From: Ralstonia pickettii DTP0602
GTDB taxonomy: Bacteria > Pseudomonadota > Gammaproteobacteria > Burkholderiales > Burkholderiaceae
DNA length: 64,000 nucleotides
Assembly (NCBI GenBank): GCA_000471925.1
Contig: CP006667.1
Location: forward strand, 1,674,001-1,738,000
Direction of reading: 5' to 3'
Positions within the stretch are counted from its first letter, which is position 1. Each line of letters begins with the position of its first letter. Below the pieces are notes generated by a model. That model was not told the DNA's origin and made no database searches. It saw only the letters and a list, made by a program, of their open reading frames with translations. Positions 14,433 to 34,718 of this stretch are shown here, piece by piece. The translations under genes were made by a program, and so were the position numbers.

Positions 14433-15746
14433 TCAGCCAAACTTGTCGAGCAAACTGTACCAGGCGACCCCGGCGGCGATATAGAAGCGCTGCAGGCCAT
14501 GCAGCGGAATCGGCGCCAGCGGCGAAACCGGGTAGGGGAATGGCGCGCCATTCGCCGTCAGCCTGGCCGCCAGATGCTTGCCGAAGCTCGTGCACAGCGC
14601 GATGCCCCGTCCGTTGCACCCCACCGCCATCGTCACGCCGGGGGCCGGTTCGTGGATATGCGGCATGAAGTCGCGGGTGACGGCGATGCGGCCTGCCCAG
14701 CGGTACTCATATTCCAGTGGCCCCAACTGCGGGAACAGCAGCGCCAGAGAACGCTCCAGATGCGCAAAATCCTGCGGCTGGCGTGGATCGGCAAAGAAGC
14801 CGCGCCCCCCCATCAGCAGCCGCCCGGCGCGGTCCTTGCGGAAGTAAAGCAGCAGGCGTTGCGAGGTCGACGCCGTCTCGCCGCGCGCAAGGATGGCCCG
14901 GGCATTCTCGCCTTCGAGCGGGCGCGTGGCCACGATAAAGCTGTTGGCGCTGAGCAGCGTCTGCTGCAGGCCGGGCCAGAGCGGACCGGTATAGCCGTTG
15001 GTGGCAATCACCACGCGGTCGGCAGTGACGGTCGCGCCCGTCGCAATGTTCGCCACCCACTTCGCACCTTGCCGCACCAGCGCCGTGACGCCGCTGCCAC
15101 CATGGATGGCGGCTCCCGCGTGCTGTGCCGCCCGGACCAGTCCGCGCACGTAGGTCAGCGGCTGGATGGCACCTGCGCGGCCATCGAGCCAACCGCCTGC
15201 GAACGCCTGCGTCCCGACGCGCCGCGCCACTTCCGCCTGGTCGAGCATTTCGACAGGCGCGCCACGACGTTGCCACTGACGCGCTCGTGCGTGCATGGCC
15301 GGCACGGCCTTGGGCGAATAGGAGAGCTGCAGCCAGCCGCTGCGCACCGGCTGGCAGTCAATGCCGTGGCGGGCGATCAGGTCGAAGACCAGGTCGGCGG
15401 AGCGCGAAACGGCGTCGATCAGGGGTTCGGCGCGCGCGCCGCCAAGCATCCGGACCAGCTCGTCCGGATCGTGCTTCAGCGTGGGATTGACTTGCCCGCC
15501 GTTGCGCCCCGATGCACCCCAGCCAGGCTCATTGGCTTCGACCACGCACACCTGGGCCCCGGCCTCGGCGAGGTGCAACGCCGTCGACAGGCCGGTGTAG
15601 CCGCCGCCGATCACAAGCACATCGACCGTCCTCGAATCCCGCAACGGGGGTGTGGCGGGGGCTGGTGGGGCGGTGGCGGCCCACAGCGACGGCGGCAGCG
15701 GGGCGGCGCAGCCTGGCTGCTCCGGCGCGAACTGAGTGAGGGTCAT
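14433..15746 (-). CDS. FAD-dependent amine/amino-acid oxidoreductase (DAO family)
   Basis: 437 residues. The FAD-binding motif [20 protein letters not shown] lies at about residues 42-62, followed by [14 protein letters not shown], a signature of the DadA/PuuB-like branch that oxidises amino acids, gamma-glutamylputrescine or sarcosine-like compounds. Its ATG overlaps the stop of the ABC ATPase gene (ATGA), placing it last in the uptake operon 17948-14433: import of an amino compound followed by its oxidation. The substrate is not shown by sequence. Confidence 0.85.
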
Positions 15747-16501
15747 AACGCGAGGTCTCCCGTTGCCTCGGCCGGCTTGTGCAGCACGCGGCGCAGAAAG
15801 TCCTGGGTGCGCGGCTGGCGGGGCGCGCCCAGTACCTGCGCGGAGGGGCCTTCTTCGACGATGGTGCCGCTGTGCAGGAAGCAGACGCGGTCGGCCACCT
15901 CCCGCGCAAAGCCCATTTCATGCGTGACCACGATCATGGTCATGCCTTCGCGCGCGAGGTCGCGCATGACCTCGAGTACGTCGCCGACCAGTTCAGGGTC
16001 GAGGGCCGAGGTCGGCTCATCGAACAACATGGCCTCGGGCTTCATTGCCAGCGCGCGGGCGATCGCCACGCGCTGCTGCTGGCCGCCGGAGAGTTGTGCC
16101 GGGTGCGCCTGTGCCTTTGCCGCCAGCCCGACCTTGTCGAGCAGGCTCATCGCATCGGCGCGGGCTTTGTCGCGGCTCTCGCCTCTCACGTAGACCGGGC
16201 CTTCCATCACGTTTTCAAGCACAGTGCGATGCGGGAACAGGTTGAAGCGCTGGAACACCATGCCCATGCGGCTGCGCAGCCGATGGATGTCCTTGCTGTC
16301 CCGGTCCACGCGCTCCCCGAACGCGCGGATCTCGCCGCCGTCATAGGATTCCAGCCCGTTGATGCAGCGCAGGACGGTGGATTTGCCGGAGCCGGACGGG
16401 CCGATCAGGCAGACCACCTCGCCTTTGCTGACATGCAGGCTGACGCCGCGCAGCACGTGGTGATTGCCGAAGTGCTTCTGCAGGTTCTGGATGTCGATCA
16501 T
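15743..16501 (-). CDS. polar amino-acid ABC transporter, ATP-binding protein
   Basis: 252 residues from ATG 16501. It has Walker [10 protein letters not shown]-loop [10 protein letters not shown], signature LSGGQQQR and Walker [13 protein letters not shown] in the usual order. The length and the FNLFPH segment fit the GlnQ/HisP group. The start overlaps the permease stop by 4 bases and its own stop overlaps the oxidoreductase start by 4 bases, so the operon is tightly coupled. The frame extends upstream only as an antisense-like shadow. Confidence 0.93.
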
Positions 16502-17169
16502 GCCTTCTTCCTCCCGGCACCGAAGCGCTGCTCCAGGCGGCGCAGGCCATAGACCAGCGGCAGGCTCATCAGCAGGTAGAGCAGGGCCACCAGCGTGTAG
16601 ACCGTCATGTTCTGGAACGTCGACGACGCGATCAGCTGGCCCGCGCGCGTCATCTCCGCCACGGTGATGGTGGAAACGAGCGACGAGTCCTTGAGCATCA
16701 TCACCAGCGTATTGCCATAGGGCGGCAGCGCGATGCGGAAGGCCTGCGGCAGGATCACGCGGCGCATGATGAGCGGTCCGCGCATGCCCATCGCCTGGGC
16801 CGCCTCGCGTTGGCCGGGATCGACGGCCTCGATGCCCGCGCGGAAGTTCTCGGCCTGGTAGGCGGAGTAGGCAATGCCAAGCCCGATCACACCCGCCTGG
16901 AAGGCGGTGAGTTGGATACCCGCCTCCGGCAGCACGAAGTAGATATAGAAAAGCTGGACGATGATCGGCAGGCCGCGGATCACATTGATCGCCGCCGCCG
17001 CCCCGTTGGAGAGCACGCTGACGGGAGACAGCTTCATCAGCGCCAGCCCCAGCCCGATGACACTGCTGAGCAGGAACGACAGCACGGTCACCTGTACCGT
17101 GACCACCGCGCCCTGAAGCAGGATCGGCAGGAACTCGCGCGCGTGGTTGAGGAACGTTGCGCCGTCCAT
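16498..17169 (-). CDS. polar amino-acid ABC transporter, permease
   Basis: 223 residues from ATG 17169; an ATG at 17187 would overlap the binding-protein gene and add six residues. It has about five membrane helices and the EAA loop ([20 protein letters not shown]) of HisM/GlnP-type permeases. It lies 5 bases after the binding-protein gene and couples to the ATPase by ATGA overlap. With a single permease gene it would work as a homodimer. Confidence 0.9.
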
Positions 17170-17174
17170 GGCTG

Positions 17175-17948
17175 TTACAGCCCCCATTTCTGGACGATCT
17201 TCGCCAGCGTGCCGTCGGCCTTGATCTGCGCGATGGCCTTGTTGACCTTTGCCAGCGTTTCGGCGTCACCCTTGCGAACCACCAGGCAGACGTCGCCCAC
17301 ATTCACCGGCTTGTAGCTCGTGACGAGCTTGACGCCCGGAAACGCGTGCTGGCGCAACTGGTAGGCGATCAGCGGCTGGTCGCCCAGGCCTGCCTTGATG
17401 CGGCCAAGCGACAGGTCGCGCGTCATGTCCGCGATCGAGTCGTAGCTGCGCACTTCCTTGAAGATGCCCTTCTTGTTGAGCATGTCGAGGAACACCGTGC
17501 CGACCTGCGCGCCGACGGTCTCGCCCTTGAGCTCATCCAGCGTGGTGTAGGCCTAGTTGTCCTCGCTCTTGACGATCAGCCCCTCGCCGTAGGAGTAGAC
17601 CGGCTCGCTGAAATCCACCACTTGCTGCCGCGCGGGCGTCTTGAGCATCGCCGCCGAGATGATGTCGATCTTGCTGGAGGTCAGCGAAGGAATCAGTGCC
17701 GCGAACGCGGTTTGCTGCACATTGACGTTGAAGCCGCCAGCCTTGCCCACGGCGGTTACCGTGTCGACCATCATGCCCTGGATGCTGTTGGTCTTCACAT
17801 CGAGGAATGTAAACGGCACGCCTGTGGCCGTCGCGCCCACGTTGTAGGTTGGTGCACCTCCCTGGGCCCAGGCGAACGAAGCGGTCGAAAGGGTGCCGGC
17901 CACGCACAGAACCAGTGCGGCGCGGCGGGAAATGGTGGCGATAGACAT
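17175..17948 (-). pseudogene. amino-acid ABC transporter substrate-binding protein with in-frame amber codon
   Basis: From ATG 17948 (AGGAG upstream) the frame encodes a signal peptide (LSTASFAWA-QG) and an SBP_bac_3-type binding domain. Codon 132 is TAG (17555-17553), right after KSEDN. The same frame then continues without shift to a normal C-terminus (VQKWGL) at 17175. Without the stop the protein would be 257 residues, the usual length. The downstream permease, ATPase and oxidase genes are intact. It may be a recent nonsense mutation, a read-through case or a sequence error. Confidence 0.8.
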
Positions 17949-18079
17949 GGGAACACTCCTAGCTTGGGGGTCAGGGGGCGCGCCAAGGTGCGCGTTTCGC
18001 GGTTTACGCAACCTGCATGCCAATATTCGATCTGCATCGATCAATAAGTAATAGATAAAAACCACTAGTTGCTTCATAT

Positions 18080-18096
18080 GAATCGATATGCGATTC
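18080..18096. promoter_or_regulatory. candidate IclR operator dyad
   Basis: GAATCG-N5-CGATTC is a perfect 6-base-arm inverted repeat with a 5-base centre in the region between the divergent binding-protein and IclR genes. Size and place fit an IclR-family operator controlling both directions. Confidence 0.45.
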
Positions 18097-18125
18097 TTAT
18101 GACGCCAACCCTGAGGTCTACAGTG

Positions 18126-18926
18126 ATGCCAGACTCACATCCCCCGGTCGAAGAAGCGGCCAGCCTGCTGTTCAACCAGTCGCTGGAAAAAGGGCAGGCC
18201 GTGCTGGCCGCCTTCAGCGCCGTGCGGCGCACCATGACCATCGGCGAGGTTGCCGAGGCGGCTGGCATCAACAAGAGTTCCGCACAGCGCATGGTTTTCA
18301 CGCTGGAGCACCTGGGCTACCTGCGCAAACATCCCAAGACACGGCGCTACCAGTTGACGCCGCGGGTGATGAGGATCGGATTCAATTACCTGGCCGCCGA
18401 TCCGCTGATCGACGTGGCCAATCCATTCCTGTCGGAACTGACCAAGCTGACGACGGAAACCACCTGCCTGACGGAGCCAGACCAGGCGGACATGGTGTAC
18501 GTCGCACGCTTTGTCAGCGCCCAGTTCGTGCCGGTGCACATGCCGATTGGCAGCCGCATCCCCATGTATTGCACCGGCTCCGGCCGCGCCTACCTGAGCG
18601 CTTTGCCGGAAGGCGAGGCGCTGACGCTGATCGAGCGCTCGGAACGCGTCGCGCACACGCCGTATACACGCACGGATATCGCGGAAATCGTGGCGACGCT
18701 GCGTGAAGCGCGCCAGCGGGGCTATGCGGTAAATAGCGAGGAACTGTTTCTCGGAGACATGACGATTGCCGCGCCGGTGATCGGCGGCAACGGACGGCCG
18801 GTGGGTGCCATCCATGTGGTGGCGCCCACCGGCCGCTGGTCGTTGGAAGAGGCGCAGGCCAGGCTGGCGCCGCCGTTGCTGCAATGTGCGCGTGCCATCA
18901 GCAGTTCCGTGCGTGCGCTGGGCTGA
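18126..18926 (+). CDS. IclR-family transcriptional regulator
   Basis: 266 residues from ATG 18126 (GAGG about 9 bases upstream); earlier in-frame starts at 18069 (TTG) and 18078 lack a ribosome binding site. An N-terminal winged helix (MTIGEVAEAAGINKSSAQRM) is followed by the IclR effector domain (GSRIPMYCTGSGRAYLSALP). It is divergent from the amino-acid transporter/oxidase operon, its likely target. Confidence 0.9.
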   Translation: MPDSHPPVEEAASLLFNQSLEKGQAVLAAFSAVRRTMTIGEVAEAAGINKSSAQRMVFTLEHLGYLRKHPKTRRYQLTPRVMRIGFNYLAADPLIDVANPFLSELTKLTTETTCLTEPDQADMVYVARFVSAQFVPVHMPIGSRIPMYCTGSGRAYLSALPEGEALTLIERSERVAHTPYTRTDIAEIVATLREARQRGYAVNSEELFLGDMTIAAPVIGGNGRPVGAIHVVAPTGRWSLEEAQARLAPPLLQCARAISSSVRALG

Positions 18927-19204: not shown

Positions 19205-19936
19205 CTACCTGGCCGCGAGCTCGGCAAGGCGTCGCGCAGTCTCTTCTGAGCGCAGGGAGGCTTCATAGGCCGACCTGCCGATGGTTTCGTTCCATTCACC
19301 GCCGGCAATCGCATCGATGTGCCGCTTCATGGAACGAACAGCGGCCGGGTCGCAACGCCCAATGCATTCGGCATACATGTCGATGGCAGCGGCGAGGTCC
19401 TCGCGGCGGACAAGGTCAGTGAGAAAGCCGACCCGGAGCAATTCCTCGCTTTCGAGCGTCATGGAAGTCAGGAAGATCTTCTTGGCTGCCGGAGAGCCCA
19501 GGCGCGAGACGAAGCGCCGCAGACCCCCTGGGTAGTAGTGCAGCCCAAACTTCGCGGCGGGCATGAACAGCTTGCAACCGTGGACGCCGATCCGGAAATC
19601 GCAGGCCAACGCGAGGTCGGTGCCACCACCGTAGACGCTGCCGTTCATCGCGCATAAAGTCGGGAGCTCGAGGGTTTCCAGGGCGTCGATCATGTCTTCG
19701 AGCGAGCGGTCCAGGCGGGTGCCGATCTGGCTCAGGGTATAGCCCGAACAGAAGGTCTTCTCGCCTTCGCCCGTCAGCACGAGCAGCCGCAAGGTCGGGT
19801 CGCGCCTCACTTGTTCCACGAGCCGCAGCAGGACCCCGATATCGTCGGGGTCAAGCCGATTGTGCTCGGAGGGGCGCCGAAGTGTGATCGTCGCCGTCCC
19901 GCCGGCGATTTCAAGGGTAGGGTTTGCGGATTTCAT
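19205..19936 (-). CDS. enoyl-CoA hydratase/isomerase (crotonase) family protein
   Basis: 243 residues. The crotonase fold is clear: oxyanion-hole segments FCSGYTLSQIG and GSVYGGGTDLALACDF and a C-terminal helical part. The two glutamates of true hydratases are not seen: the GGGxEL position reads GGGTDL and the second reads KFGLHYYPGG. It may therefore be a dehydratase, isomerase or hydrolase of the superfamily rather than a hydratase. Its ATG overlaps the CoA-transferase stop (ATGA), so the pair acts together on one CoA ester. Confidence 0.85.
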   Translation of the reverse strand: MKSANPTLEIAGGTATITLRRPSEHNRLDPDDIGVLLRLVEQVRRDPTLRLLVLTGEGEKTFCSGYTLSQIGTRLDRSLEDMIDALETLELPTLCAMNGSVYGGGTDLALACDFRIGVHGCKLFMPAAKFGLHYYPGGLRRFVSRLGSPAAKKIFLTSMTLESEELLRVGFLTDLVRREDLAAAIDMYAECIGRCDPAAVRSMKRHIDAIAGGEWNETIGRSAYEASLRSEETARRLAELAAR

Positions 19937-21156
19937 GGCTTGGGGTCGTGGCCGTGTTGCAGGATGATGCCTTCGCGCGCCAGTGCTTCCAGGTCGGACG
20001 TGGGGAATCCATGTTCCCGAAGGACGTCAAACGTGTGCTCGCCGAGCATGGGCGGCGCGCGGCGAATGGATTTCCCATGGCGGCCGTCGAAGGCGATCGG
20101 GCTGCCGACTTGCCGGATGCAACCCAGCTCTGCGTGCTGGACTTGCTCCACAAGCCGGGAGTGAATGACCTGCTCGTCAGCAAAGACGTCCGCGACGTTG
20201 TAGATCGGGCCAGCTGGAATATCTGCCGCCAGCAGCCGTTGCGTCCACTCCTTGCGGCTGTGCGCCTTCAGCCTGGCCTCGATCACCTCCTTGAGCTCGG
20301 CGCGCCGCTCGATCCGCGCTGCATTCGTCGCGTAGCGCGGATCATCGATCAGCTCTTGCAATCCAAGCACCTCGCAGAGGCGCTTCCACATCTCGGCTGT
20401 CGCCGGTGCGATGTTCAATGGCCCATCCGCGGTCTGGAATACCCCATACGGCGCAATCACAGGGTGCGTATTCCCGGCAAGACCGGGAATCTCCCCCAGG
20501 CTCAGGTAACGCTGGGCCTGTACGCTCATGAGTCCGACGAGTCCCGCCAACAGTGAGGTTTCCACCCGCCGACCGCGCCCGGTTGCATGGCGCTGCGCTA
20601 CGGCAGCCAGGATGCCGATGGCACACCACATCCCGGCAGTCTGGTCGCCGATCGCCACACCCACCCTGACCGGTCCCGATTCCGGCATGCCCGTCACGCT
20701 CATGAGTCCGGAGTACCCCTGGGCAATCTGGTCGAACCCGGGACGTTGACTCGCTGGTCCCGTACGGCCGAAACCGGTGACGCTCGCATAGATGAGCCGA
20801 GGGTTCGCTTCGGCAAGCGCCTCGTACCCAAGACCCATGGATTCCATGGCGCCGGCGCGAAAGTTCTCCACGATCACGTCGTACTGGCCGGCGAGATCGC
20901 GCAGCAGGTCAAGCGCGCGAGGATCGCGGAAGTTGACGGCGATCCCGCGCTTGTTGCGGTTGCCGCTCAGGTAGTAAGCGCTGGTGCCGCGGTCGAAAGG
21001 CCCCCAGTGGCGGATCATGTCCCCGCCCGCGGGCTCGACCTTGATCACGTCGGCGCCCAGGTCGCCCAGGACCATCGTGCAGAAGGGGCCCGCAAGCGCC
21101 CTGGTGAGGTCCAGGACACGTATCCCCGAAAGTGGCAAGGATGTTGGGTCGGTCAC
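19933..21156 (-). CDS. class III CoA-transferase (CaiB/BaiF family)
   Basis: 407 residues starting at GTG 21156, which has GAGGAG upstream. The family N-terminus is clear (LSGIRVLDLTRALAGPF, LGDLGADVIKVEP), and the catalytic aspartate is expected at Asp171 in AIGDQTAG. Such enzymes move CoA between carboxylic acids in the cytoplasm. It is divergent from the sulfatase operon across a short region carrying a perfect palindrome, so both are probably controlled together. Confidence 0.9.
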   Translation of the reverse strand: MTDPTSLPLSGIRVLDLTRALAGPFCTMVLGDLGADVIKVEPAGGDMIRHWGPFDRGTSAYYLSGNRNKRGIAVNFRDPRALDLLRDLAGQYDVIVENFRAGAMESMGLGYEALAEANPRLIYASVTGFGRTGPASQRPGFDQIAQGYSGLMSVTGMPESGPVRVGVAIGDQTAGMWCAIGILAAVAQRHATGRGRRVETSLLAGLVGLMSVQAQRYLSLGEIPGLAGNTHPVIAPYGVFQTADGPLNIAPATAEMWKRLCEVLGLQELIDDPRYATNAARIERRAELKEVIEARLKAHSRKEWTQRLLAADIPAGPIYNVADVFADEQVIHSRLVEQVQHAELGCIRQVGSPIAFDGRHGKSIRRAPPMLGEHTFDVLREHGFPTSDLEALAREGIILQHGHDPKP

Positions 21157-21193
21157 GCGTTCTCCTCTTGTCAGATCGTATTTCCTACTCTAT

Positions 21194-21205
21194 GTTGTAT
21201 ACAAC
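21194..21205. promoter_or_regulatory. candidate GntR/FCD operator (perfect palindrome)
   Basis: GTTGTATACAAC is a perfect 12-base palindrome centred between the divergent CoA-transferase (start 21156) and sulfatase (start 21239) genes. It fits the TnGTnnACnA pattern known for FadR/VanR-type GntR regulators, and a GntR/FCD gene lies at the end of the sulfatase operon. Confidence 0.6.
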
Positions 21206-21238
21206 GGAAATGCAACCGTTGTGCAAAAAAGGAGACTC

Positions 21239-22762
21239 ATGCGCAAGCCCAACATTCTTTTCATCATGGCCGACCAACTCTCGGCACCGGTTTTGCCCTT
21301 CCACGGCAACACCGTCGTGAAGGCGCCTCACCTCCAGGCGCTCGCCGAACGGTCCGCAGTCTTTGACAACGCCTACTGCAACTTTCCCTTGTGCGCACCT
21401 GCCAGGTCCTCGCTGCTTGCAGGCCAGTTCGCCACGCGCATCGGCGCGTTCGACAACGCGTGCGAGTTCCAGGCTGCCACGCCCACGCTGCCTTATTACC
21501 TTGCGCAGCAGGGCTACAAGACCATCCTCGGCGGGAAGATGCACTTCGTCGGCCCTGACCAGAAGCACGGCTTCGAGGAGCGCCTTACCACCGACATCTA
21601 CCCGGCGGACTTCGGCTGGGCAGCGGACTGGGCGGAGGGCGAGTTCAGCTTCTACTCACCTGGGCACAACCTGAGTACTGTGGATGAAAGCGGCTCTTGC
21701 TTCCGCAGCCTGCAACTCGATTACGACGAGGAGGTCGAGGCGAAGGCGATCCAGCGTCTGTACGACCTCGCGAGGGAAGACGAGCAGCCGTTCTTCATGT
21801 GCGTTTCCTATACGCACCCCCATCCGCCGTATCACATCCTGCCCGAGTACCTGGATCGTTACTCGCCTGAGGAGATCAACCTGCCTGTCGTCGGCGACAT
21901 GCCGATGCAGGAGCGCGACAAGCTCAGCCAGTGGGTGCAGTATTCCCACGGGCTGGACAAGCAAGGGGCGACCGACGAACAGGTGCGGCGTGCGCGCCAC
22001 GCCTACTATGCGATGGTGAGCTACGTCGACGACAAAGTGGGCCGTCTTCTGGAGACGCTCAAGCGCGCGGGCTTCGCGGACAACACCATCGTCGTGTTCA
22101 CTTCCGATCATGGCGACATGCTGGGCGAGCGCGGCATGTGGTTCAAGCGGGTGTTCTTCGACTGGTCGGCCAAGGTTCCGCTGCTCGTCTACGACCCGCG
22201 CAAGCGCGAACCCCGGCGAATCGCGGAGCCGGTTTCCCACGTGGACCTGCTCCCCACATTGCTGGATCTTGCGATGGATGGCCAAACGCCGGCCTGGGTC
22301 GAGCCGATCGACGGACGCAGCCTCGTGCCGCTGGTCGCAACGGGCGATGACGACGGCGAGGCGGAAGCGTTCGTCGAGTACACCGCCGAGGGCGTCACGG
22401 GTCCATGCTGCATGCTGCGCCGTGGCCGATACAAGTACGTGTACACCCATGGCCATCCAGACCTGCTTTTCGACATGGAGGCCGACCCGAACGAGCTGGT
22501 GAACATCGCGCAAGAGCAGCCGCAGGTGCTTGCCGAGTTCAAGGCACGCGTGCTCTCCCGATGGGATCCCGCTGCAATCACGCAGCAGGTGCTTGCCAGC
22601 CAGGCACGCCGCAAATTTATCAACTCGCTGCCCGAGGGCATTCAGCCCGCCTGGGACTACCAGGCGGCCACGGACGACACACGCCGGTTTGTGCGCCGGG
22701 GCAGCGCTCGCGTGATTAAGGTAAAGAAGCGCTGGCCGGCAGTGGCGCCCGTCGCCAAGTGA
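21239..22762 (+). CDS. type I sulfatase, choline-sulfatase-like
   Basis: 507 residues from ATG 21239 with AAGGAG upstream; the frame runs upstream only as a shadow. The N-terminus KPNILFIMADQL gives metal ligands near Asp12. The formylglycine motif C-x-P-x-R is Cys52-Ala-Pro-Ala-Arg56. A metal-binding SDHGDMLGERG lies at Asp290/His291, and the sequence around it resembles BetC choline sulfatases. No signal peptide is seen, so it acts in the cytoplasm on an imported sulfate ester. It needs a formylglycine-generating enzyme, not found in this window. A related alkaline-phosphatase-fold hydrolase cannot be excluded. Confidence 0.85.
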   Translation: MRKPNILFIMADQLSAPVLPFHGNTVVKAPHLQALAERSAVFDNAYCNFPLCAPARSSLLAGQFATRIGAFDNACEFQAATPTLPYYLAQQGYKTILGGKMHFVGPDQKHGFEERLTTDIYPADFGWAADWAEGEFSFYSPGHNLSTVDESGSCFRSLQLDYDEEVEAKAIQRLYDLAREDEQPFFMCVSYTHPHPPYHILPEYLDRYSPEEINLPVVGDMPMQERDKLSQWVQYSHGLDKQGATDEQVRRARHAYYAMVSYVDDKVGRLLETLKRAGFADNTIVVFTSDHGDMLGERGMWFKRVFFDWSAKVPLLVYDPRKREPRRIAEPVSHVDLLPTLLDLAMDGQTPAWVEPIDGRSLVPLVATGDDDGEAEAFVEYTAEGVTGPCCMLRRGRYKYVYTHGHPDLLFDMEADPNELVNIAQEQPQVLAEFKARVLSRWDPAAITQQVLASQARRKFINSLPEGIQPAWDYQAATDDTRRFVRRGSARVIKVKKRWPAVAPVAK

Positions 22763-22775
22763 AAGGAGGCCGATA

Positions 22776-24275
22776 ATGACGCAGAACAAGCTCACGGCGG
22801 ACATCGATCCGCACCGTCTGGCTCGCGCGATAAGCGGCTACAACCTGATCGGCGGCGGCCTGGTGGGGGCGCGCTCGGGAAACACTTTCCCGGTAGCCAA
22901 CCCTGCAACCGGACGCGAGATCGGGCACGCGGCTGAAAGCGACGCAAGCGACGTCGACCGCGCAGTGCGTGCGGCGGCCCAGGCGCAGCCCGCGTGGGCC
23001 GCGATGCCGGCTCGCAAGCGTGGCGCGCTGCTGGCCGACTGCGCGCGCCTGATTGGCGAGCACGTGGAGGAACTGGGCCGGCTGGTGGCGCTCGAAACCG
23101 GCAAGGCCCTGCGCACCGAGAGCCGGGTCGAAGCCTCCGTCGTTGCCGACGCTTTGCAGTTCTACGGCGGCCTGGCTTCGGAACTCAAGGGCGAAACCGT
23201 GCCGTTCAGCCCGGACATGCTGACACTCACGCAGCGCGAACCGATCGGGGTGGTGGGCGTCATCATTCCCTGGAATGCCCCCATGATGCTGATGGCGCTG
23301 AAGATCGCCCCGGCGCTGGTGGCCGGCAACACGGTCGTCGTGAAATCGGCCGAAGAGGCGCCGCTGGCGGTCCTGAGGCTCTGCCAGATCATGAACCAGG
23401 CGCTGCCCGCCGGGGTGCTGAACATCGTCTCGGGCTTCGGCCCCGAATGCGGGGCGCCCCTGGTCGCGCACCCCGCGGTCGGCAAGGTGACGTTCACCGG
23501 CTCCGTCGAAACCGGAAGAATCGTGGCGCGCACGGCCGGAGAGAAGCTCATCCCCGTCACGCTGGAACTCGGCGGCAAGAGCCCGATGATCGTCATGGAC
23601 GACGCCGACATCGCGAAGGCCGTCGCCGGCGCGGTGAGCGGCATGCGCTTCACCCGCCAGGGACAGAGCTGCACGGCCGCCAGCCGCATTTTCGTGCACG
23701 AGAAGGTGCACGAAGAATTCGTCGCCTTGCTCAAGGAGCGAGTTGACGCGCTGAAGATGGGTGACCCGCTGGATGAAGCGACGGACATCGGCACGGTCAT
23801 CTCGCGCACCCAGCTCGACAAGATTCTCGGCTACATCGAAAGCGGTCGGGCCGAGCCTCATTCCCGGGCGCTCGAATGCTCCCAGTTGCCTGCGGATGAG
23901 TCGCTTCGGGAAGGCCTGTTCGTCAGGCCGGTCATCTTTACCGGCCTGGACAACACATCCCGGCTGGCGCGCGAAGAAATCTTCGGACCCGTGACGTGCG
24001 TGATCCGCTTCTCAAGTTACGAAGAAGCCGTGGCACAGGCCAACGACAGCGACTACGGACTGGCTGCAACCATCTGGACGCAGAACCTGAAGACCGCGCT
24101 GGATGCCACCCGACGCCTGCAGGCAGGCTTCGTGCAGGTGAACCAGAACATCGTGGTCCAGCCTGGATTGTCCTACGGGGGCGTGAAGCAATCCGGCCTT
24201 GGCCGCGAGGCGTCGTTGGAGGCAATGCTGGACCACTTCACGCACAAGAAGACCGTGATCTTCAACATGAACTAA
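22776..24275 (+). CDS. NAD(P)+-dependent aldehyde dehydrogenase
   Basis: 499 residues with AAGGAGG before the ATG, 13 bases after the sulfatase. The catalytic residues are Glu264 (LELGGKSP) and Cys299 (GQSCTAASR), and the cofactor site GSVETGR is in place. The length and sequence type fit the betaine/semialdehyde dehydrogenase group. In this operon it probably oxidises an aldehyde made from the alcohol set free by the sulfatase. Confidence 0.9.
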   Translation: MTQNKLTADIDPHRLARAISGYNLIGGGLVGARSGNTFPVANPATGREIGHAAESDASDVDRAVRAAAQAQPAWAAMPARKRGALLADCARLIGEHVEELGRLVALETGKALRTESRVEASVVADALQFYGGLASELKGETVPFSPDMLTLTQREPIGVVGVIIPWNAPMMLMALKIAPALVAGNTVVVKSAEEAPLAVLRLCQIMNQALPAGVLNIVSGFGPECGAPLVAHPAVGKVTFTGSVETGRIVARTAGEKLIPVTLELGGKSPMIVMDDADIAKAVAGAVSGMRFTRQGQSCTAASRIFVHEKVHEEFVALLKERVDALKMGDPLDEATDIGTVISRTQLDKILGYIESGRAEPHSRALECSQLPADESLREGLFVRPVIFTGLDNTSRLAREEIFGPVTCVIRFSSYEEAVAQANDSDYGLAATIWTQNLKTALDATRRLQAGFVQVNQNIVVQPGLSYGGVKQSGLGREASLEAMLDHFTHKKTVIFNMN

Positions 24276-24299
24276 GACGCTCGTTACGAGGAGACAAGA

Positions 24300-25175
24300 A
24301 TGGCTGCGATCGGTTTCATCGGGTTGGGCAATATGGGATTTCCTATGGCGTGCCGACTGAAGGAGGCAGGGCATGAGGTTCGCTGCTTCGATCTCAACGC
24401 GAGCTCGATGGAGCGCGCATTGCATGCGGGCCTCGGGCCGCGGGCTTCGGTCGAGGAAACGGTATCCGGGGCGGAGGTTGTCATCACCATGCTGCCCAGC
24501 GGTCGGCATGTGCTGGACGTGCTCACGGCAGACACGCTGCCGCTCGCGCCTGGAGCGCTTGTGATCGATTGCTCGACGATCGATGTCGCGTCCTGCGCTG
24601 TCTTCCACGAAACGCTGCGCAAGAAGGGGCTGGTCACGCTTGACGCTCCCGTTTCCGGCGGCGTAAGCGGCGCGGCGGCGGGGTCGCTCACGTTCATGGT
24701 CGGAGGCACTGAATCAGCCTTCGCGCGTGCCCTCGAACTGCTGCGCGCGATGGGCAAGAACATCTTCCATGCAGGCGCGGCGGGCGCCGGCCAGGCGGCA
24801 AAGATCTGCAACAACATGCTGGCAGGCATTTCCATGGTGGCCGTCTCCGAGGCCCTGCATCTGGCCAAGCGACTGGGGCTGGATCCACGGAGGTTCTACG
24901 AGATTGCGTCGACGTCTTCCGGCCAATGCTGGGCGCTCACGAGCTATGCGCCTGAGCCCGGCCTGGTGGCGTCCGCGCCGGCCAATCGTGGGTACGAAGG
25001 CGGCTTCGCTTCCGAGCTGATGTTGAAGGACTTGCGGCTGGCGGAGCAGGCTGCGGTTGCGAGCCAGTCGCCGGCCTTGCTGGGCGCGGCGGCCGCCTCC
25101 GTCTACGCGATGCATTGCGCCGCCGGGCGTGGCCGGCTCGACTTTTCCTCCATCATCAAGATGCTCGGCGCATAA
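24300..25175 (+). CDS. NAD(P)-dependent beta-hydroxyacid dehydrogenase (HIBADH family)
   Basis: 291 residues. The Rossmann motif IGFIGLGNMGFPMA opens the protein; the substrate motif DAPVSGGVSGAAAGS and the catalytic lysine Lys168 (GQAAKICNN) follow. Family members oxidise 3-hydroxyisobutyrate, tartronate semialdehyde, sulfolactaldehyde and similar compounds. It lies 24 bases after the aldehyde dehydrogenase, suggesting alcohol to aldehyde to acid steps on one small hydroxy acid; the exact substrate is open. Confidence 0.9.
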   Translation: MAAIGFIGLGNMGFPMACRLKEAGHEVRCFDLNASSMERALHAGLGPRASVEETVSGAEVVITMLPSGRHVLDVLTADTLPLAPGALVIDCSTIDVASCAVFHETLRKKGLVTLDAPVSGGVSGAAAGSLTFMVGGTESAFARALELLRAMGKNIFHAGAAGAGQAAKICNNMLAGISMVAVSEALHLAKRLGLDPRRFYEIASTSSGQCWALTSYAPEPGLVASAPANRGYEGGFASELMLKDLRLAEQAAVASQSPALLGAAAASVYAMHCAAGRGRLDFSSIIKMLGA

Positions 25176-25213
25176 GCTGCCCGCAGCAAAATCAAGCAGC
25201 AAGGAGACCAACC

Positions 25214-26185
25214 ATGGCAATCGTCCGACGCGTATTCCAGGTGGCTGTTGTCGCTGTTCTGTTCGTCAGCGGCGCAGCCTTCGCGCAGAAGGAAACGGGT
25301 AAATTGATTGTGGGTTACCCCTCGGGCCAGTCTGTCGACGTGGTCGCCCGGATCCTGGCCAACCGCCTCGGTCCGGCGATCGGGCGGTTGCTGATCGTGG
25401 AGAACATGCCGGGGCAGTCCGGCAGCCTGGCGCTGGCAGCGGTTGCGCGCATGCCCGCTGACGGCAGCGTGATGACGCTGTCGGCTTCGGCGGCCCTGGC
25501 TGGCAATCCTTCCCTGTATCGGAACCTGCGTTACGACACGGCTCGAGATTTCGAGCCGATCGGCCTGGTCTACGATGCGCCGCTCCTGCTGATGGTTAAT
25601 AGCGCGCTTCCCATTCACTCGCTGAAGGAGCTGATTGCCTACGCGAAGGCGAACGCGGGAAAGGTCAACTATTCGTCCCCCGGCAACGGTTCGGTGTCCC
25701 ATCTTGCGATGTCGGAGCTCCTGCGGCGAACCGGCATGGAAATGACGCATGTCCCCTATGCCGGTTCCGCCAAGTCGCTGACCGACCTTGCGGCAGGTGA
25801 GGTGCAGGTAGCCTTCGATGCCTTTGCGGGCGCGCAGCCCTACCTCGCCAGCGGCAAGGTGCGTGCCATTGCGGTGAGTTCCCGGGAGCGCCTGACCGCA
25901 CTGCCGTCCGTACCGACAGTCGCCGAGAGCGGCCTGGGCATGGAAGACTTCGACGTGGTCCCGTGGGTGGGTCTGCTCGCGCCCGCCGGCACCCCGAAAC
26001 CTGTCGTGGACAGGGTGAGCGCCGAGCTCGCCAGGATCGTCCAGTCTCCCGAACTGTCCCAACGGATCGCCGCCTTGGGCGGCCGCCCGCGCAGCAGCAC
26101 TGCGGCGGAATTCAGGACCTTCCTGCGCGGCGAAATGGGACGGTGGGCGGACGTCGTCAAGGCGTCCGGCGCTCGCCTGGAGTGA
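25214..26185 (+). CDS. Bug-family tripartite tricarboxylate-type binding protein
   Basis: 323 residues from ATG 25214 (AAGGAGA at 25201). The signal peptide ends at GAAFA-QK. The domain pattern (GKLIVGYPSGQSVDVVARIL, VENMPGQSG) is that of Bug/TctC periplasmic receptors, which bind carboxylates, amides or aromatic acids. No TctA/TctB membrane genes are present, as is common for Bug proteins in this group. It probably captures the substrate of this operon. Confidence 0.9.
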   Translation: MAIVRRVFQVAVVAVLFVSGAAFAQKETGKLIVGYPSGQSVDVVARILANRLGPAIGRLLIVENMPGQSGSLALAAVARMPADGSVMTLSASAALAGNPSLYRNLRYDTARDFEPIGLVYDAPLLLMVNSALPIHSLKELIAYAKANAGKVNYSSPGNGSVSHLAMSELLRRTGMEMTHVPYAGSAKSLTDLAAGEVQVAFDAFAGAQPYLASGKVRAIAVSSRERLTALPSVPTVAESGLGMEDFDVVPWVGLLAPAGTPKPVVDRVSAELARIVQSPELSQRIAALGGRPRSSTAAEFRTFLRGEMGRWADVVKASGARLE

Positions 26186-26265
26186 TGGCCGTTCACCTCC
26201 TCGTGCTGCGGGTCCCGGTCATGGCTGGCCGGTACCTGCCTGTCCGTTGAAGCGCGTCACATCTT

Positions 26266-26275
26266 CTGTATACTG
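26266..26275. promoter_or_regulatory. degenerate GntR operator-like site before the regulator gene
   Basis: CTGTATACTG shares the GTATAC core with the palindrome at 21194-21205 and lies directly before the GntR start codon, as expected for weak autoregulation. It is not a perfect dyad. Confidence 0.35.
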
Positions 26276-26280
26276 TCTGA

Positions 26281-26967
26281 ATGAGCACAGCAAAATCGAG
26301 CGCATTGCGAAAACGGGATCCACAGCCGCTGTCCGTGGAGCAGGTCAGCGAGCGGATTCGCTCCGCCATCCTGCGCGGAGACTTGCGGCCAGGCGCAAAA
26401 CTGACAGAGCAGGATCTTGCGGCGGAATTCGAAGTGAGCCGCACGCCCATCCGGGAGGCTATCCGCCAACTCGAGACCGAGCGGCTCGTCACCCGGACGC
26501 CGTTCGTCGGTGTCACGGTGAGGCAGCTGACGCCAGAAGATGTGCTTGAGCTGCTGGACATCCGCGAGGTGCTCGAGGGTCTGGTGGCACGTCTGGCGAC
26601 GCGGCATATGGATGCCGCGCACCTGCAGAAGCTGAATAAGTTGTTCCAGCAACTGACTGCCTGCGCAAAGAAGGGGGATGTCCCCGGCTATCTTGACCAC
26701 GCGCTGGCGTTTCGCCGTGTGCTCGTCGAATGCTGCCGCAGCGACACGCTGGCTGAGTACGTCCTCGACATCGAGAACCAGTTGCGCCTGATGGGCAATC
26801 GAACCGCCATGCTGCCGGGCCGCATGGAAGCCGCGATCGAGGAACACGAGAAGTTGCTGGATGCCATCGCTCGCGGCGATGGCGCTGCGGCGGAGCAGTT
26901 GAACCGGGAGCGCATCCAGCATATCCGCGACGCGGTTGCGAAGTCGATTACCTTCTCGATCTTCTAG
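26281..26967 (+). CDS. GntR-family regulator with FCD domain
   Basis: 228 residues. The N-terminal winged helix (VSERIRSAILRGDLRPGAKL, FEVSRTPIREAIRQLE) and an all-helical FCD effector domain (about residues 90-215) place it in the FadR/VanR subfamily, usually repressors released by an acid. It closes the sulfatase operon and probably binds the palindrome at 21194 and the related site in front of itself. Confidence 0.9.
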   Translation: MSTAKSSALRKRDPQPLSVEQVSERIRSAILRGDLRPGAKLTEQDLAAEFEVSRTPIREAIRQLETERLVTRTPFVGVTVRQLTPEDVLELLDIREVLEGLVARLATRHMDAAHLQKLNKLFQQLTACAKKGDVPGYLDHALAFRRVLVECCRSDTLAEYVLDIENQLRLMGNRTAMLPGRMEAAIEEHEKLLDAIARGDGAAAEQLNRERIQHIRDAVAKSITFSIF

Positions 26968-26996: not shown

Positions 26997-27794
26997 TCAA
27001 GTGCGGTACGAGGTACCGCGCTCCCGCTCGAGCTTGCGCAAGAGGCCAGGCCATTCGACCTTGCCAACCTCCAGGAAGCCGCCAGGACCGAGCATCTTGC
27101 GCCCCTGAGCGCGGGTATGCTGGATGGTGGCCTCGGACAATGCCTGAAGGGGCACGCCAGCGGCCTGGCCATCAATCTGGTACTGACATGCCGTCTCCAG
27201 GCGCAGCATCCAGCAGAACGCCTCACCCACACTGCGGCCAACCGTGAGCGCACCGTGGTTGCGCAGGATCAGAACGCGGCCTTCCGGGCCGAGGTCGCGC
27301 ACCAGTCGCTGCCGTTCGTCCTCATCGAGCGCCGCGCCCTCGTAGTCGTGGTAGCCGAGAAAGTCCAGCATGACGCAGGCCTTCTGGCTGAGAGGTCGCA
27401 GCCCCATGGCCTGCATCGCGACAGCGTTGTTGGCGCGCGTGTGGCTGTGCATGACGCATAGCAGATCAGACTGCGACATGTGAATGGCGCTGTGGATGAT
27501 GAAGCCGGCGGGGTTGAGCAGCGACGGATCGCCCTCCACGACGCGGCCGGCCAGGTCCACCTTGAGCAGGGCCGAAGCCGTCATCTCGTCGAAAAGCGTG
27601 CCCAGCGGGTTGACCAGGAAATGGTGTTCGGGCCCGGGCAGCAGGACCGAGATGTGCGTCGACGCGAGGTCGGACATTCCATAGAGGTCGGTGAGCTGAT
27701 AGCACGCTGCGAGGTCGCAGCGCAGCCGCCACTCGGCCGGATCCATGCCGTCGGGCATCGCGGGGAAAGCTAGCTGGGCGGTATCGCTTCTCAT
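26997..27794 (-). CDS. class II aldolase/adducin-family protein
   Basis: 265 residues. The Zn-binding HxH motif lies in VMHSHTRANNAV and the third histidine in ILRNHGALTVGRS, as in fuculose-phosphate aldolases. Many members of this group in aromatic or amide catabolic loci act as aldolases or decarboxylases on non-phosphorylated acids. It is the last gene of the operon amidase-Bug-aldolase (30265 to 26997). Confidence 0.85.
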   Translation of the reverse strand: MRSDTAQLAFPAMPDGMDPAEWRLRCDLAACYQLTDLYGMSDLASTHISVLLPGPEHHFLVNPLGTLFDEMTASALLKVDLAGRVVEGDPSLLNPAGFIIHSAIHMSQSDLLCVMHSHTRANNAVAMQAMGLRPLSQKACVMLDFLGYHDYEGAALDEDERQRLVRDLGPEGRVLILRNHGALTVGRSVGEAFCWMLRLETACQYQIDGQAAGVPLQALSEATIQHTRAQGRKMLGPGGFLEVGKVEWPGLLRKLERERGTSYRT

Positions 27795-27839: not shown

Positions 27840-28832
27840 TCAGTCCTCGTTGCGGAATCCCGATGCCTGGACGAGCGGACGCCAGAACTCGCGCTCGGCG
27901 TGCAGCGTGCGGGTCACGGTCGCGCCAGGCAGACCCGTTGCTTCCAGACCGACACGCGACAACAAGACTTTCATCTGCGGTTTGTGCATGGCGGCGACGA
28001 ACGTCCGCTCCAACCGTTGCACTACATCCGGGGGCGTTCCCGCAGGCACAAAGGCGCTGTACGACGCATTCGCGTGATCGAATGCGCCGATGCCAGCCTC
28101 GCGCACGGTCGGCACATCGGGAAGGGCCGCGTTTCGATGGGTGCCAGAGACGGCCAGGATGCGAATCTTTCCTGCGCGATAAAGCTCCAGCTGGCTGGCC
28201 AGGGCGTCTGTGGCTAGCGGAACGTGCCCGCCCACGAGGTCCGTCACAAGCGGCGCGCCTCCTTTGTAGGCCACCGGCCTGAGAGGGACGCCTACCGTTT
28301 GCCCCATGCCGAGGATGGCGAAATGCAGTGTCCCGCCCAGCGAGGTGAGGCCGATATTGCCCTGCGCAGGGTTCGCACGGACCCAGCTCACGTACTCCTG
28401 CAGCGTCTTGTAGGGGCGATCCGCGCCCGCCGATATCACCGTGGGGACTTCTGCAAGCTGAGCCACGGCAATGAAGTCGCGATCGACGTCATAATCAAGC
28501 CGTCGGTAGGTCATCGGGAAGATGACCAGCGGCGCATTCGATGAAAGCAGCACAGTCCGGCCGTCCGGCTGCGACCGTTTCACGGCGTCGATGGAGATGC
28601 GTGTCGATGCGCCCGGCCTGTTTTCCACGATCACCGTGCCCATGCCTGCCAAGCGCAGCTGGTCTGCCAGCGCGCGCGCGAGGGTGTCCAGCGCCCCCCC
28701 GGGCGGGAAGCCGACAACAAGCCGCAAGGGCGTTGCGTTCGTCGCAGAGGCTTGCGCGCAGGCCGGGTTCGCTGCCAGGGCGGCCAGGGCGGCCACCGAG
28801 CCAACCGCAAGCAAACGGCGTATCGATTTCAT
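27840..28832 (-). CDS. Bug-family periplasmic binding protein
   Basis: 330 residues with signal peptide ending near ANPACA-QA. It has the Bug hallmarks LRLVVGFPPGGALDTLARAL and VIVENRPGAS. The ATG overlaps the amidase stop by 4 bases, so receptor and amidase are made together. It probably binds the amide that the amidase hydrolyses. Confidence 0.9.
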   Translation of the reverse strand: MKSIRRLLAVGSVAALAALAANPACAQASATNATPLRLVVGFPPGGALDTLARALADQLRLAGMGTVIVENRPGASTRISIDAVKRSQPDGRTVLLSSNAPLVIFPMTYRRLDYDVDRDFIAVAQLAEVPTVISAGADRPYKTLQEYVSWVRANPAQGNIGLTSLGGTLHFAILGMGQTVGVPLRPVAYKGGAPLVTDLVGGHVPLATDALASQLELYRAGKIRILAVSGTHRNAALPDVPTVREAGIGAFDHANASYSAFVPAGTPPDVVQRLERTFVAAMHKPQMKVLLSRVGLEATGLPGATVTRTLHAEREFWRPLVQASGFRNED

Positions 28833-30265
28833 CTTGCCACCTCCACATCTGGCCAGCGGGACAAGAGATCCTGGGAAGCCTCGAACAGCGCAGCCGCGCC
28901 GAGAAGGTCGGACTCCCCGCGCAGACGACCCACCAACTGCAACCCGATGGGCAGTCCGTCACGGCCAAAGCCGCAAGGCAGGGTGATGGCGGGGTGGCCG
29001 GTCAGGTTGAACGGCATGGTCCAGGGGAACCAGTTGGATCGCACCTCGTCGTACAGCCGGCCATCGATCTCTATCTGCCCGAACAGATCCTGATCAATCG
29101 GCAGCGCAGTGCGCGCAATGGTGGGAACGGCGATGAAGTCGTGGTCACGCAGCAGCGCCTGCACGTGCCGGAACAGCCGGGTGCGTTCGAAGTTGGCCCG
29201 TTGGTAGTCGACCGCACTGTAGTCATTGGCAAGGGCCAGCTGCTGCAACAGCGAAGGGCTGAGCCGGTCAGGCTGCTCCCGGGCCATCTGACCGAAGCGC
29301 GCTCGCCATACGGTGTGGTTGATGGTTCGCCAGAGCGGCTCGATGTTGAAGCCCGAGCCAGGCATTTCTGCGAGCTCCGCACCCAGGTCCTGCAACCGCT
29401 CCAGGGCAGAGGCGAAACACGCGGCCACATCTGCCGCGAGCGGTCGGCCTGGCGGCGCGCTTGCGAACAGGATCCGCTTATGCCGCAGGTCAGTGACAGA
29501 CCGCATTTCACCGAGGTAATCGGTGGCCTGTACGCCGGCAGACCACGGGTCCGACGCGTCTTCGCCGGCCATTGCCTGGAGCATCAAGGCAGTGTCGGCC
29601 ACCGTGCGCGAGATAGGGGTGACGTAGGTGAGGTTGCCGAAGGCATCCTCCACTTGAGAATGCGGCACCAACCCGATGCTTTGCTTCAGGCCAACGACAC
29701 CATTGCAGGCCGCCGGAATGCGGGTGGAACCGCCCCCGTCTGTGGCGATGCCTATCGGGGCGAGGCCGGTCGCTACTGCCACCGCCGCGCCGCCGCTGGA
29801 GCCACCGCTGGTGCGGTCAGGGTGCCAGGCATTGCCAGTGCGTCCAAACAGAGGGGCATCGGTCAGGCACTTCGCGCCGAATTCCGATGTGGTCGTTTTC
29901 CCGATGAGGATGGCTCCCTGGCGGCGTAGCCGGGCGGTGGCTACCGCGTCCTCGGTCGGAACGTTGTCCGCGAACAGCAGCGAGCCGAAGGTCGTACGCA
30001 CTCCCTGCGTGTTCACCAGGTCCTTGCATGCGTAAGGAATGCCATGCAGCAATCCTGCAGGCTCCCCGCGCATGAGCGCTTGCTCTGCGGCCCGTGCCTC
30101 GCGCATGGCCTCGTCCGGGCACAGCGTGATGAAGCAGTTGAGGTTCGATTGAAGCCGGGTGGCACGGTCCAGCACGGCACGCGTCACTTCGACCGGGGAA
30201 ATCTCGCGGGCGGTTATCGCTTCGCGAAGCCGCACCGCAGGCAAAAAGCAAAGTTCCTCATTCAT
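28829..30265 (-). CDS. amidase (amidase-signature family)
   Basis: 478 residues from ATG 30265; the frame extends to 30343 but MNEELCFLPAVRLREAI aligns with the paralogue at 41629. The catalytic triad Lys81 (ACKDLVN), Ser156 (GGSSGG) and Ser180 (GGGSTRIP) is complete. It hydrolyses a carboxamide to acid and ammonia in the cytoplasm. It heads the operon and is divergent from a LysR regulator. Confidence 0.9.
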   Translation of the reverse strand: MNEELCFLPAVRLREAITAREISPVEVTRAVLDRATRLQSNLNCFITLCPDEAMREARAAEQALMRGEPAGLLHGIPYACKDLVNTQGVRTTFGSLLFADNVPTEDAVATARLRRQGAILIGKTTTSEFGAKCLTDAPLFGRTGNAWHPDRTSGGSSGGAAVAVATGLAPIGIATDGGGSTRIPAACNGVVGLKQSIGLVPHSQVEDAFGNLTYVTPISRTVADTALMLQAMAGEDASDPWSAGVQATDYLGEMRSVTDLRHKRILFASAPPGRPLAADVAACFASALERLQDLGAELAEMPGSGFNIEPLWRTINHTVWRARFGQMAREQPDRLSPSLLQQLALANDYSAVDYQRANFERTRLFRHVQALLRDHDFIAVPTIARTALPIDQDLFGQIEIDGRLYDEVRSNWFPWTMPFNLTGHPAITLPCGFGRDGLPIGLQLVGRLRGESDLLGAAALFEASQDLLSRWPDVEVAR

Positions 30266-30383
30266 CCGAAACACCCTGGGAGATTCCGGCTCAAGTGACC
30301 GGCGACGAATCAAAGTTGACACGCACCTCCCCACCCGGTCCAATACTCGTTCACAATCAGGCCATATGGGAATCGTATGACTT

Positions 30384-31265
30384 ATGGACCTTAAGAGCCT
30401 GCGTTATTTCGTTGCCGTAGCCGAGGCCCGCAGCGTGGGCAAGGCCGCCGAGCGCCTGCATATGGCGCAACCGCCGCTGTCCGTCCAGATTCGCAACCTC
30501 GAGGCACAACTCGGCACGGCGCTCTTTGTGCGCGAATCCACCGGAATGCGACTGACAGACGCGGGAAGCGCGCTCTTCGCCCGCGCGCGCGAAGCGCTGG
30601 CGTTGGCTCACGAGGGGTTCGAGGCTGCACGCGCCGTAGGGTCGGGGCGGCGCGGGCGGCTGTCTGTCGGCTACATGTTTTCGCTCGGCTACGCTGTACT
30701 GCCGAAGCTCGTGCCGCAGTTGCGCCGCACACTCCCGGACGTCGAACTGCAGTTCGTCGAGATGAGCACCGCGACGTATGAAGCGCAAATCGTTGACCAC
30801 AAGGTAACACTTGGTTTGTGCATGCCACCGATTCAGCGGCCGGACCTGTCCACGACGATCGTGGGCATGCAACCGCTACGGCTGGCCTTGCCTGCACGTG
30901 CGCAGCTCGCACGGCTTTCGTCGGTACCGGTGGCACGGCTGCAGGGGCAGAGGCTGATTGCGCTGCCCACACTGAAAGAGGGCGCAGACACTTCGATGGT
31001 TGCGGCTTTGCTGCGGCGCCACCAGGTCACCATGCAAATCGTCGAACGGGTGGAAACGGTTCACGCAGCACTGGCTCTGGTGCTTGCAGGCGAGGGGTAT
31101 GCGATCGTGCCCGCGTGCGCGGAAATCGGCCGGCCTCCGGGTGTAGTGTTCCGAAAGCTCAGGGAGGTCACAGAGGGGTTCGAGGTGGCCGTCTGCCGGC
31201 GCCGCGATCTGGAAAGCCCTTTCATCGAGCCGTTCATCGCGGCGGCGCGGCACGCGCTTCGATGA
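30384..31265 (+). CDS. LysR-family transcriptional regulator
   Basis: 293 residues. The N-terminus MDLKSLRYFVAVAEARSVGK and ERLHMAQPPLSVQIRNLE is a typical CbbR/BenM-like helix-turn-helix, followed by an effector domain. The 118 bases between it and the amidase start would hold its sites; it probably activates the amidase operon. Confidence 0.9.
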   Translation: MDLKSLRYFVAVAEARSVGKAAERLHMAQPPLSVQIRNLEAQLGTALFVRESTGMRLTDAGSALFARAREALALAHEGFEAARAVGSGRRGRLSVGYMFSLGYAVLPKLVPQLRRTLPDVELQFVEMSTATYEAQIVDHKVTLGLCMPPIQRPDLSTTIVGMQPLRLALPARAQLARLSSVPVARLQGQRLIALPTLKEGADTSMVAALLRRHQVTMQIVERVETVHAALALVLAGEGYAIVPACAEIGRPPGVVFRKLREVTEGFEVAVCRRRDLESPFIEPFIAAARHALR

Positions 31266-31922: not shown

Positions 31923-31944
31923 GCTCGGCTCCCTTGCCACGAGC

Positions 31945-33675: not shown

Positions 33676-33800
33676 GGGGCGCTCCTTATTCGAGTCTTGT
33701 CGACCTGGCCGCTTGGGTGAGCGAAACGCACAAGTCGATGCGCATCGTTGCGACGCAAAGCAGGTCCTGCCGCGCGTCGAAGTGGCCCGAGGTGAAGTGC

Positions 33801-34707: not shown

Positions 34708-34718
34708 CGCCGCTCCGC

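Follow-up and report, generated by a model that had tools for sequence, protein, structure and literature searches.

Organic sulfur in soil occurs mainly as sulfate esters and sulfonates, according to an excerpt of PMC4267179, and few sulfatases have a characterised substrate (PMC5066984, likewise as excerpted). Here we describe a sulfatase-centred gene cluster of Ralstonia pickettii DTP0602, contained in a 64,000-nucleotide stretch of contig CP006667.1 (positions 1,674,001 to 1,738,000 of the forward strand; hereafter the window) from a genome of 8.13 Mb in three contigs, and compare it with the closest described systems. The first of these is the choline-sulfatase BetC of Sinorhizobium meliloti (SmCS, PDB 6fny, 6g5z and 7pth), encoded in betICBA. 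The window sulfatase resembles SmCS in fold family, length, formylglycine motif, catalytic and metal residues and C-terminal tail region, and in both loci the sulfatase gene is followed by an aldehyde dehydrogenase (ALDH) gene. The two sulfatases share 44% identity, and differ in that the WWYHN hairpin of SmCS becomes SPGHN and its NLD gate an Arg-rich stretch. In place of BetA, BetI and ChoX, the window cluster encodes a Bug receptor, a 3-hydroxyisobutyrate dehydrogenase (HIBADH)-type enzyme, a CoA-transferase, a crotonase and an amidase.

The closest published logic is the breakdown of acesulfame by a formylglycine sulfatase and an amidase, though the other genes differ (PMC11500405 and PMC10413263, both as excerpted). 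In Shinella, the excerpt of PMC11500405 describes a plasmid-borne two-step hydrolysis by acesulfame sulfatase and ANSA amidase, with TauE/SafE, the sulfatase being 30% identical to SmCS. Like this system, the window pairs a formylglycine sulfatase with an adjacent amidase-signature enzyme and a LysR regulator, but it also has oxidation and CoA enzymes and no TauE/SafE, which sets it apart from the Shinella pathway as described there. Single enzymes of the cluster further resemble the valine-type dehydrogenase MmsB/HIBADH and the E. coli methylmalonyl-CoA decarboxylase ScpB.

The cluster is real and conserved, and is probably not one for choline catabolism. We propose, with a probability of about 0.4, that it is a catabolic island dedicated to one pathway, whose substrate would be a small hydroxy-carboxylate carrying a sulfate ester and met in amide linkage. 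Its features are the following.

19205..19936, minus strand: crotonase-fold enzyme (ECH), with Glu144/Glu164 of hydratases replaced by Asp/Ala and Tyr at the ScpB Tyr140 position
19933..21156, minus strand: class III CoA-transferase, its nearest models and solved relatives being dicarboxylate enzymes (succinate-glutarate, mesaconate, oxalate)
21195..21204, no strand: predicted operator site TTGTATACAA (TTGCATACAA in relatives) in the CoA-transferase/sulfatase gap
21239..22762, plus strand: formylglycine-type sulfatase of the BetC (choline-sulfatase) family, with altered pocket (SPGHN, RRGSAR tail)
22776..24275, plus strand: aldehyde dehydrogenase, betaine-aldehyde dehydrogenase (BADH)-like, under the BADH cut-off
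24300..25175, plus strand: beta-hydroxyacid dehydrogenase of 3-hydroxyisobutyrate dehydrogenase type
25214..26185, plus strand: Bug/TctC solute receptor
26186..26280, plus strand: scar of a cupin-like gene, of which ~0.69 kb is gone in the window
26281..26967, plus strand: GntR/FCD regulator, the probable operator binder
26997..27794, minus strand: class II aldolase/adducin-family enzyme
27840..28832, minus strand: second Bug-type receptor, named by similarity to the first Bug and from the SRS16 annotation
28829..30265, minus strand: amidase-signature enzyme with Lys and Ser motifs
30266..30383, no strand: gap between the divergent amidase and LysR genes, containing the conserved site CATA-N9-TATG (T-N11-A)
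30384..31265, plus strand: LysR regulator

The seven core reading frames, arranged as crotonase–CoA-transferase facing sulfatase–ALDH–HIBADH–Bug–GntR, are open and intact (the sulfatase start codon lying at 21239), and match ECH_1, CoA_transf_3, Sulfatase plus Choline_sulf_C, Aldedh, TIGR01692, TctC/Bug and GntR-FCD, respectively. By eye, a signal peptide is present on the Bug protein and absent from the sulfatase. Positions and families agree with a preliminary description made from the DNA letters, which ended the locus at 26967; the unit extends to ~31265, and the linked block of class II aldolase, second Bug, amidase and LysR was omitted there. That description treated a lack of conservation beyond this strain as speaking against the set, and on this point its sulfatase-centred catabolic set stands. 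A scan of named genomes yielded 35 loci, and the core is kept in all 12 of those whose sulfatase is at least 80% identical to that of the window. With further genomes and plasmid records included, the clade comprises 18 distinct sulfatases (78–100% identity to the window enzyme; 68% for the next relative outside it) from Cupriavidus, Variovorax, Ramlibacter, Caenimonas and metagenome-assembled genomes, and the seven-gene core plus the aldolase is found in all 18 clade genomes. Since the genomes of the window's own genus include those carrying the named Cupriavidus loci, we take the host to be a Cupriavidus.

Three arrangements occur in the clade: window-like order in 14 of the 18, the amidase–aldolase block beyond the crotonase in three (L016, L130/131 and L146), and a split cluster in one (L132, G475). 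A gene is inserted between HIBADH and Bug in L015, and genes are inserted ahead of the aldolase in L008, L009 and L013. LysR is encoded in 17 of the 18 loci, adjoining the aldolase in L132. Of the 18 loci, 14 carry the cupin-like gene, with one copy truncated where its stretch ends. No copy was found in C. necator A5-1, L013, L015 or the window, the last retaining only the scar; the label refers to an HFH motif seen by eye, a Pfam search having given no match, and the predicted structure (mean predicted local distance difference test score, pLDDT, 53) was not used. The clade is patchy, the sulfatase occurring in 5 of 60 genomes of the host's own genus, 8 of 101 of Variovorax (the genus of strain WS11), 2 of 399 sampled from the family of WS11 and 1 of 399 sampled from the order, the last being the window's own genome. 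The cluster is plasmid-borne in WS11, SRS16 and PBL-E5. A link to isoprene degradation, considered for the hosts WS11 and WS9, was dropped: the iso genes are on megaplasmid 1 (PMC7143210, as excerpted), and the cluster is on pVarWS11_2.

The amidase–aldolase block belongs with the sulfatase core: an aldolase orthologue (83–88% identity) is found in exactly those 8 of 101 Variovorax genomes that carry the sulfatase (Fisher p 5e-12, kinship ignored); the next best aldolase match in this genus, among the matches listed, has 53% identity. The amidase is less strict, with paralogues at 58–68% identity and more distant ones widespread, and has matches in 40 of the 101 and 26 of the 60 genomes. In a tree of 32 amidases (midpoint rooting only), the 17 cluster-linked enzymes, from 17 genomes, fall within one 18-row clade (support 99/97), whose extra row, L199, sits on a long branch and represents the second amidase copy of the L010 genome. 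Some facts would suit two separate neighbouring pathways, a sulfatase operon and an amidase–aldolase operon sharing only their neighbourhood: each block has its own regulator and site, amidase–Bug units exist without the clade sulfatase, and the amidase beside the cluster in G475 is of a different clade, grouping with paralogues from genomes in which the clade sulfatase is missing. Yet 17 of 18 genomes have one amidase clade linked to the cluster, in differing orders, and the aldolase follows the sulfatase exactly across 101 genomes; we regard two separate pathways as unlikely. Amidase paralogue units adjoin a DHA2 efflux-type pump in three Variovorax loci and in G475, which gives no substrate hint. 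Window 39168-41630 encodes a second amidase, 64% identical to that of the cluster, together with a separate Bug receptor, and similar amidases occur in many genomes of the same genus.

The pairing of sulfatase and amidase also raises, by analogy, an acesulfame-like xenobiotic, that is, a sulfamate or sulfate with an amide attacked by the sulfatase and then the amidase. The Shinella precedent, with its formylglycine sulfatase beside an amidase with LysR (PMC11500405, as excerpted), and the origin of the hosts SRS16 and PBL-E5 from linuron-contaminated soil point in this direction. The cluster is nevertheless diverged and rearranged (sulfatases 78-97% identical to that of the window) and looks older than a recent xenobiotic pathway, acesulfame needs neither oxidation nor CoA steps, and the cluster genes include no TauE/SafE gene; such a substrate would be very unlikely.

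The window sulfatase passes the choline-sulfatase model TIGR03417 (604.5 bits, cut-off 433.45), which accepts 10 of 10 BetC-like proteins tried, two from choline contexts at 893 and 843 bits and eight without WYHN at 564–677 bits. In solved choline-sulfatase structures, choline is flanked by two residues of a GW-X13-WYHN hairpin, Trp129 and His145, and a neighbouring subunit contributes Leu499/Asp500 as a gate (PMC9063841, as excerpted); Glu386 is emphasised in the excerpt of PMC5870055. All 18 clade sulfatases keep the catalytic and metal residues Asp14, Cys54, Arg58, Lys102, His104, His201, Asp296, His297 and Lys309, and all carry SPGHN in place of the choline-binding WYHN, with P-G for W143-Y144 and the GW-X13-WYHN motif lost. 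Their C-terminal tail reads RRGSAR[VI]IKVKKR in all 17 that are readable, and is basic with zero acidic residues. The Leu499-Asp500 gate is missing from this tail, which is one residue shorter, leaving the exact column uncertain. The WYHN enzymes have a tail of RNHxxLD type (LD in 12 of 14, LN in 2 of 14).

The same division is seen in an alignment of 68 BetC-like proteins (BLAST at least 280 bits; rows sharing the first 400 residues dropped), of which 14 have a WYHN box, 18 SPGHN and 36 another. The nine catalytic and metal positions are intact in all 32 SPGHN and WYHN rows, the 36 others showing one substitution and single gaps. For 65 of the 68, neighbourhoods could be placed on stretches of at least 9 kb (three SPGHN proteins through the locus of a near-identical sister; L143 duplicates part of L016). 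Choline genes (betA, betI or choX, at least 35% identity) are nearby in 13/13 WYHN, 0/18 SPGHN and 4/34 other cases, the last through a BetA-like match of 39–45%, and Bug genes in 0/13, 18/18 and 20/34, respectively, an association that comes from related sequences and not from independent events. Around the window sulfatase, no match to BetA, BetI or ChoX was found within ~10 kb on either side, bearing out the preliminary remark that choline pathway genes are missing.

Were the locus one for choline-O-sulfate utilisation, the sulfatase would be BetC, the ALDH BetB, and the remaining genes passengers or involved in betaine handling. The TIGR03417 score, the retention of Trp129, His145 and Glu386, and the sulfatase–ALDH order shared with betICBA would fit this. 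However, TIGR03417 also admits enzymes from taurine and hydroxyproline-type contexts, the WYHN hairpin and the acidic gate are gone, and betA, betI and choX are near none of the 18 clade members. In addition, the ALDH reaches 463.6 of the 668.6 bits required by the betaine-aldehyde dehydrogenase model TIGR01804, and HIBADH-type enzymes act on hydroxy-carboxylates. A choline locus is improbable, and choline sulfate itself is an unlikely substrate; the clade sulfatase is probably mislabelled in databases, where the SRS16 protein is named choline-sulfatase. Sulfatase maturation is possible, because the genome holds formylglycine-generating-enzyme (FGE) family genes above cut-off.

Other BetC-like sulfatases stand in other contexts. 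Those with FGVSS (L154:5992-12382) and GGVST (L136:8308-15401) boxes, in Shinella and one Variovorax genome, have genes for a dapA-like protein, an ALDH and a proline-racemase-family member as neighbours, and possibly serve hydroxyproline-O-sulfate catabolism. An Azospirillum enzyme with a DWSHH box (L147:7285-12440, L153:3285-8452) is encoded among genes for taurine/sulfonate uptake and TauD, which suggests that a sulfate ester is scavenged for its sulfur. Where the box is PTG, PSQMS or PAGAT, the sulfatase often shares its stretch with Bug receptors (L092, L094-L099, L103, L106, L107 and L019), and L019 has three sulfatase-like and three Bug-like genes inside 8 kb.

The two divergent core operons share a conserved site. 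In the window, TTGTATACAA (21195-21204) is a perfect palindrome and the sole match with at most one mismatch in 64 kb (0.10 expected); in relatives it is a near-palindrome. An extended version of the motif matches the 8.1-Mb genome exactly at one place and, elsewhere, once more with two mismatches; the reversed control gives zero matches. The consensus TTGYATACAA is present in the CoA-transferase/sulfatase gap of all 18 loci and absent outside this gap in the 17 loci scanned, in keeping with the shared divergent operator named in the preliminary description. By eye, the operator overlaps the end of a promoter-like pair, TTGTCA-N17-TATGTT. The site CATA-N9-TATG precedes LysR in 13 of 13 aligned loci and in SRS16, the neighbour in L132 being the aldolase. 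From this arrangement, we infer that GntR binds TTGYATACAA and LysR binds CATA-N9-TATG. The operator sequence also occurs in a phage contig that is devoid of cluster genes, and this match was put down to chance.

The dehydrogenase passes the HIBADH model TIGR01692 (375.1 bits, cut-off 291.6) and is close to human HIBADH and to 3q3c/3obb, its best solved relatives, with which residues 2–288 of 291 align. It is thus comparable to the valine-type MmsB, but by model scores its partner ALDH is BADH-like, unlike MmsA, which is of the CoA-acylating ALDH type. The nearest matches of the CoA-transferase are enzymes for succinate–glutarate, mesaconate and oxalate, every model remaining below its cut-off. 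Glu144 and Glu164 are the catalytic pair of enoyl-CoA hydratase (PMC3660561, as excerpted). The crotonase has Asp and Ala at these positions in 17 of 17 aligned orthologues and so lacks the hydratase signature, making a hydration step unlikely. It shares with ScpB a fold without the hydratase Glu pair and a Tyr matching Tyr140; Tyr140 and His66 are catalytic residues of ScpB, and the latter is replaced by Tyr in the window enzyme, which reaches 82.1 of 257 bits with the methylmalonyl-CoA decarboxylase model PRK11423, missing its cut-off.

These enzymes also bear on a zwitterionic substrate, such as an amino acid O-sulfate of the L-serine-O-sulfate type or its N-acyl form. Trp129, His145 and Glu386 would then hold the ammonium and the new arginines the carboxylate, and the dehydrogenase would oxidise a serine-like side chain. 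In its favour are a cation site that persists alongside a new basic tail, the kinship of the dehydrogenase to 3q3c/3obb (reportedly characterised as an L-serine dehydrogenase) and a class III aminotransferase inserted in the L013 cluster, and a serine-O-sulfate-like zwitterion also fits the mixed pocket. The dehydrogenase, however, passes the HIBADH model, and the cluster has no constant aminotransferase, lyase or deaminase, the aminotransferase having been seen in 1 of 18 loci; this reading remains rather unlikely.

In the pathway we propose for a sulfated hydroxy-carboxylate, the simplest that employs these enzyme families, the anion would be captured by the Bug receptors, and the amidase would release the acid from its amide, upstream of desulfation. 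The cytoplasmic sulfatase would then strip sulfate from the sulfooxy-carboxylate to give the hydroxy acid, whose primary beta-alcohol may be oxidised to a malonate-semialdehyde-type aldehyde by the HIBADH-type enzyme, and further to a malonate-type dicarboxylate by the ALDH. The class III CoA-transferase would load CoA on this malonate-type acid, and the crotonase-fold enzyme would take off CO2 from the CoA ester, with no hydration. The aldolase-family and cupin-like proteins are given no step in this route. GntR/FCD is predicted to act at TTGYATACAA on both divergent operons, and LysR at the amidase operon. The outline in the preliminary description (desulfation, two oxidations and CoA activation) is consistent with the enzyme families and is kept as the conjectural frame of this route; it is from these families that we infer the reactions, their sequence and the substrate class.

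Several observations weigh against this proposal. The sulfatase clears the TIGR03417 cut-off by 171 bits, and Trp129, His145, Asn146 and Glu386 of the choline site are retained in all 18 clade members, because of which a cationic or zwitterionic substrate is possible. The kinship behind the box–neighbour association, the low PRK11423 score of the crotonase and its Tyr at ScpB His66 count in the same direction, as do the G475 amidase outside the cluster clade and L015, a locus without a visible LysR. Among the cluster genes, there is also no tctAB partner and no sulfate exporter gene.

A broader proposal is put forward tentatively, as somewhat less than an even prospect: a dedicated pathway for amide-linked sulfooxy-carboxylates, in which the choline cage of a formylglycine sulfatase is rebuilt as a carboxylate site, within a 'choline-sulfatase' family that would consist of small-molecule alkyl-sulfatases, often misnamed, whose pockets differ (SPGHN, PTG, DWSHH, PSQMS and others) and whose transporters differ to match. 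Candidate compounds may include 3-sulfooxy acids, serine-O-sulfate-like compounds and methylglycerate-sulfate-like organosulfates. Pantothenate catabolism, prompted by the amidase and aldolase, was dropped, as no cluster gene indicates it; no search was made for it.

Other gene groups surround the cluster. A block encoding an FAD oxidoreductase, an ABC transporter and IclR (window 14433-18926) lies on the opposite side of the cluster in G540 (L135), and is therefore a separate unit. Adjoining LysR, window 31284-38093 encodes a TonB-dependent receptor, a YNCE-like beta-propeller protein and products that, by eye, resemble cytochrome c and quinoprotein dehydrogenases. Genes of the multicomponent phenol-hydroxylase type, an ALDH and a DmpG-type aldolase at window 44395-55464 are probably an aromatic meta-cleavage cluster.

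A description of the cluster was not found in the open-licence literature, titles and abstracts, among the matches listed. The agreement of sequence box, gene neighbours and transporter type makes the choline-sulfatase name doubtful, and replaces it with a specific, testable pathway. The hairpin box could help to sort the whole BetC-like family by substrate, and the conserved sulfatase–amidase island probably lets a few soil bacteria use a small sulfated acid.

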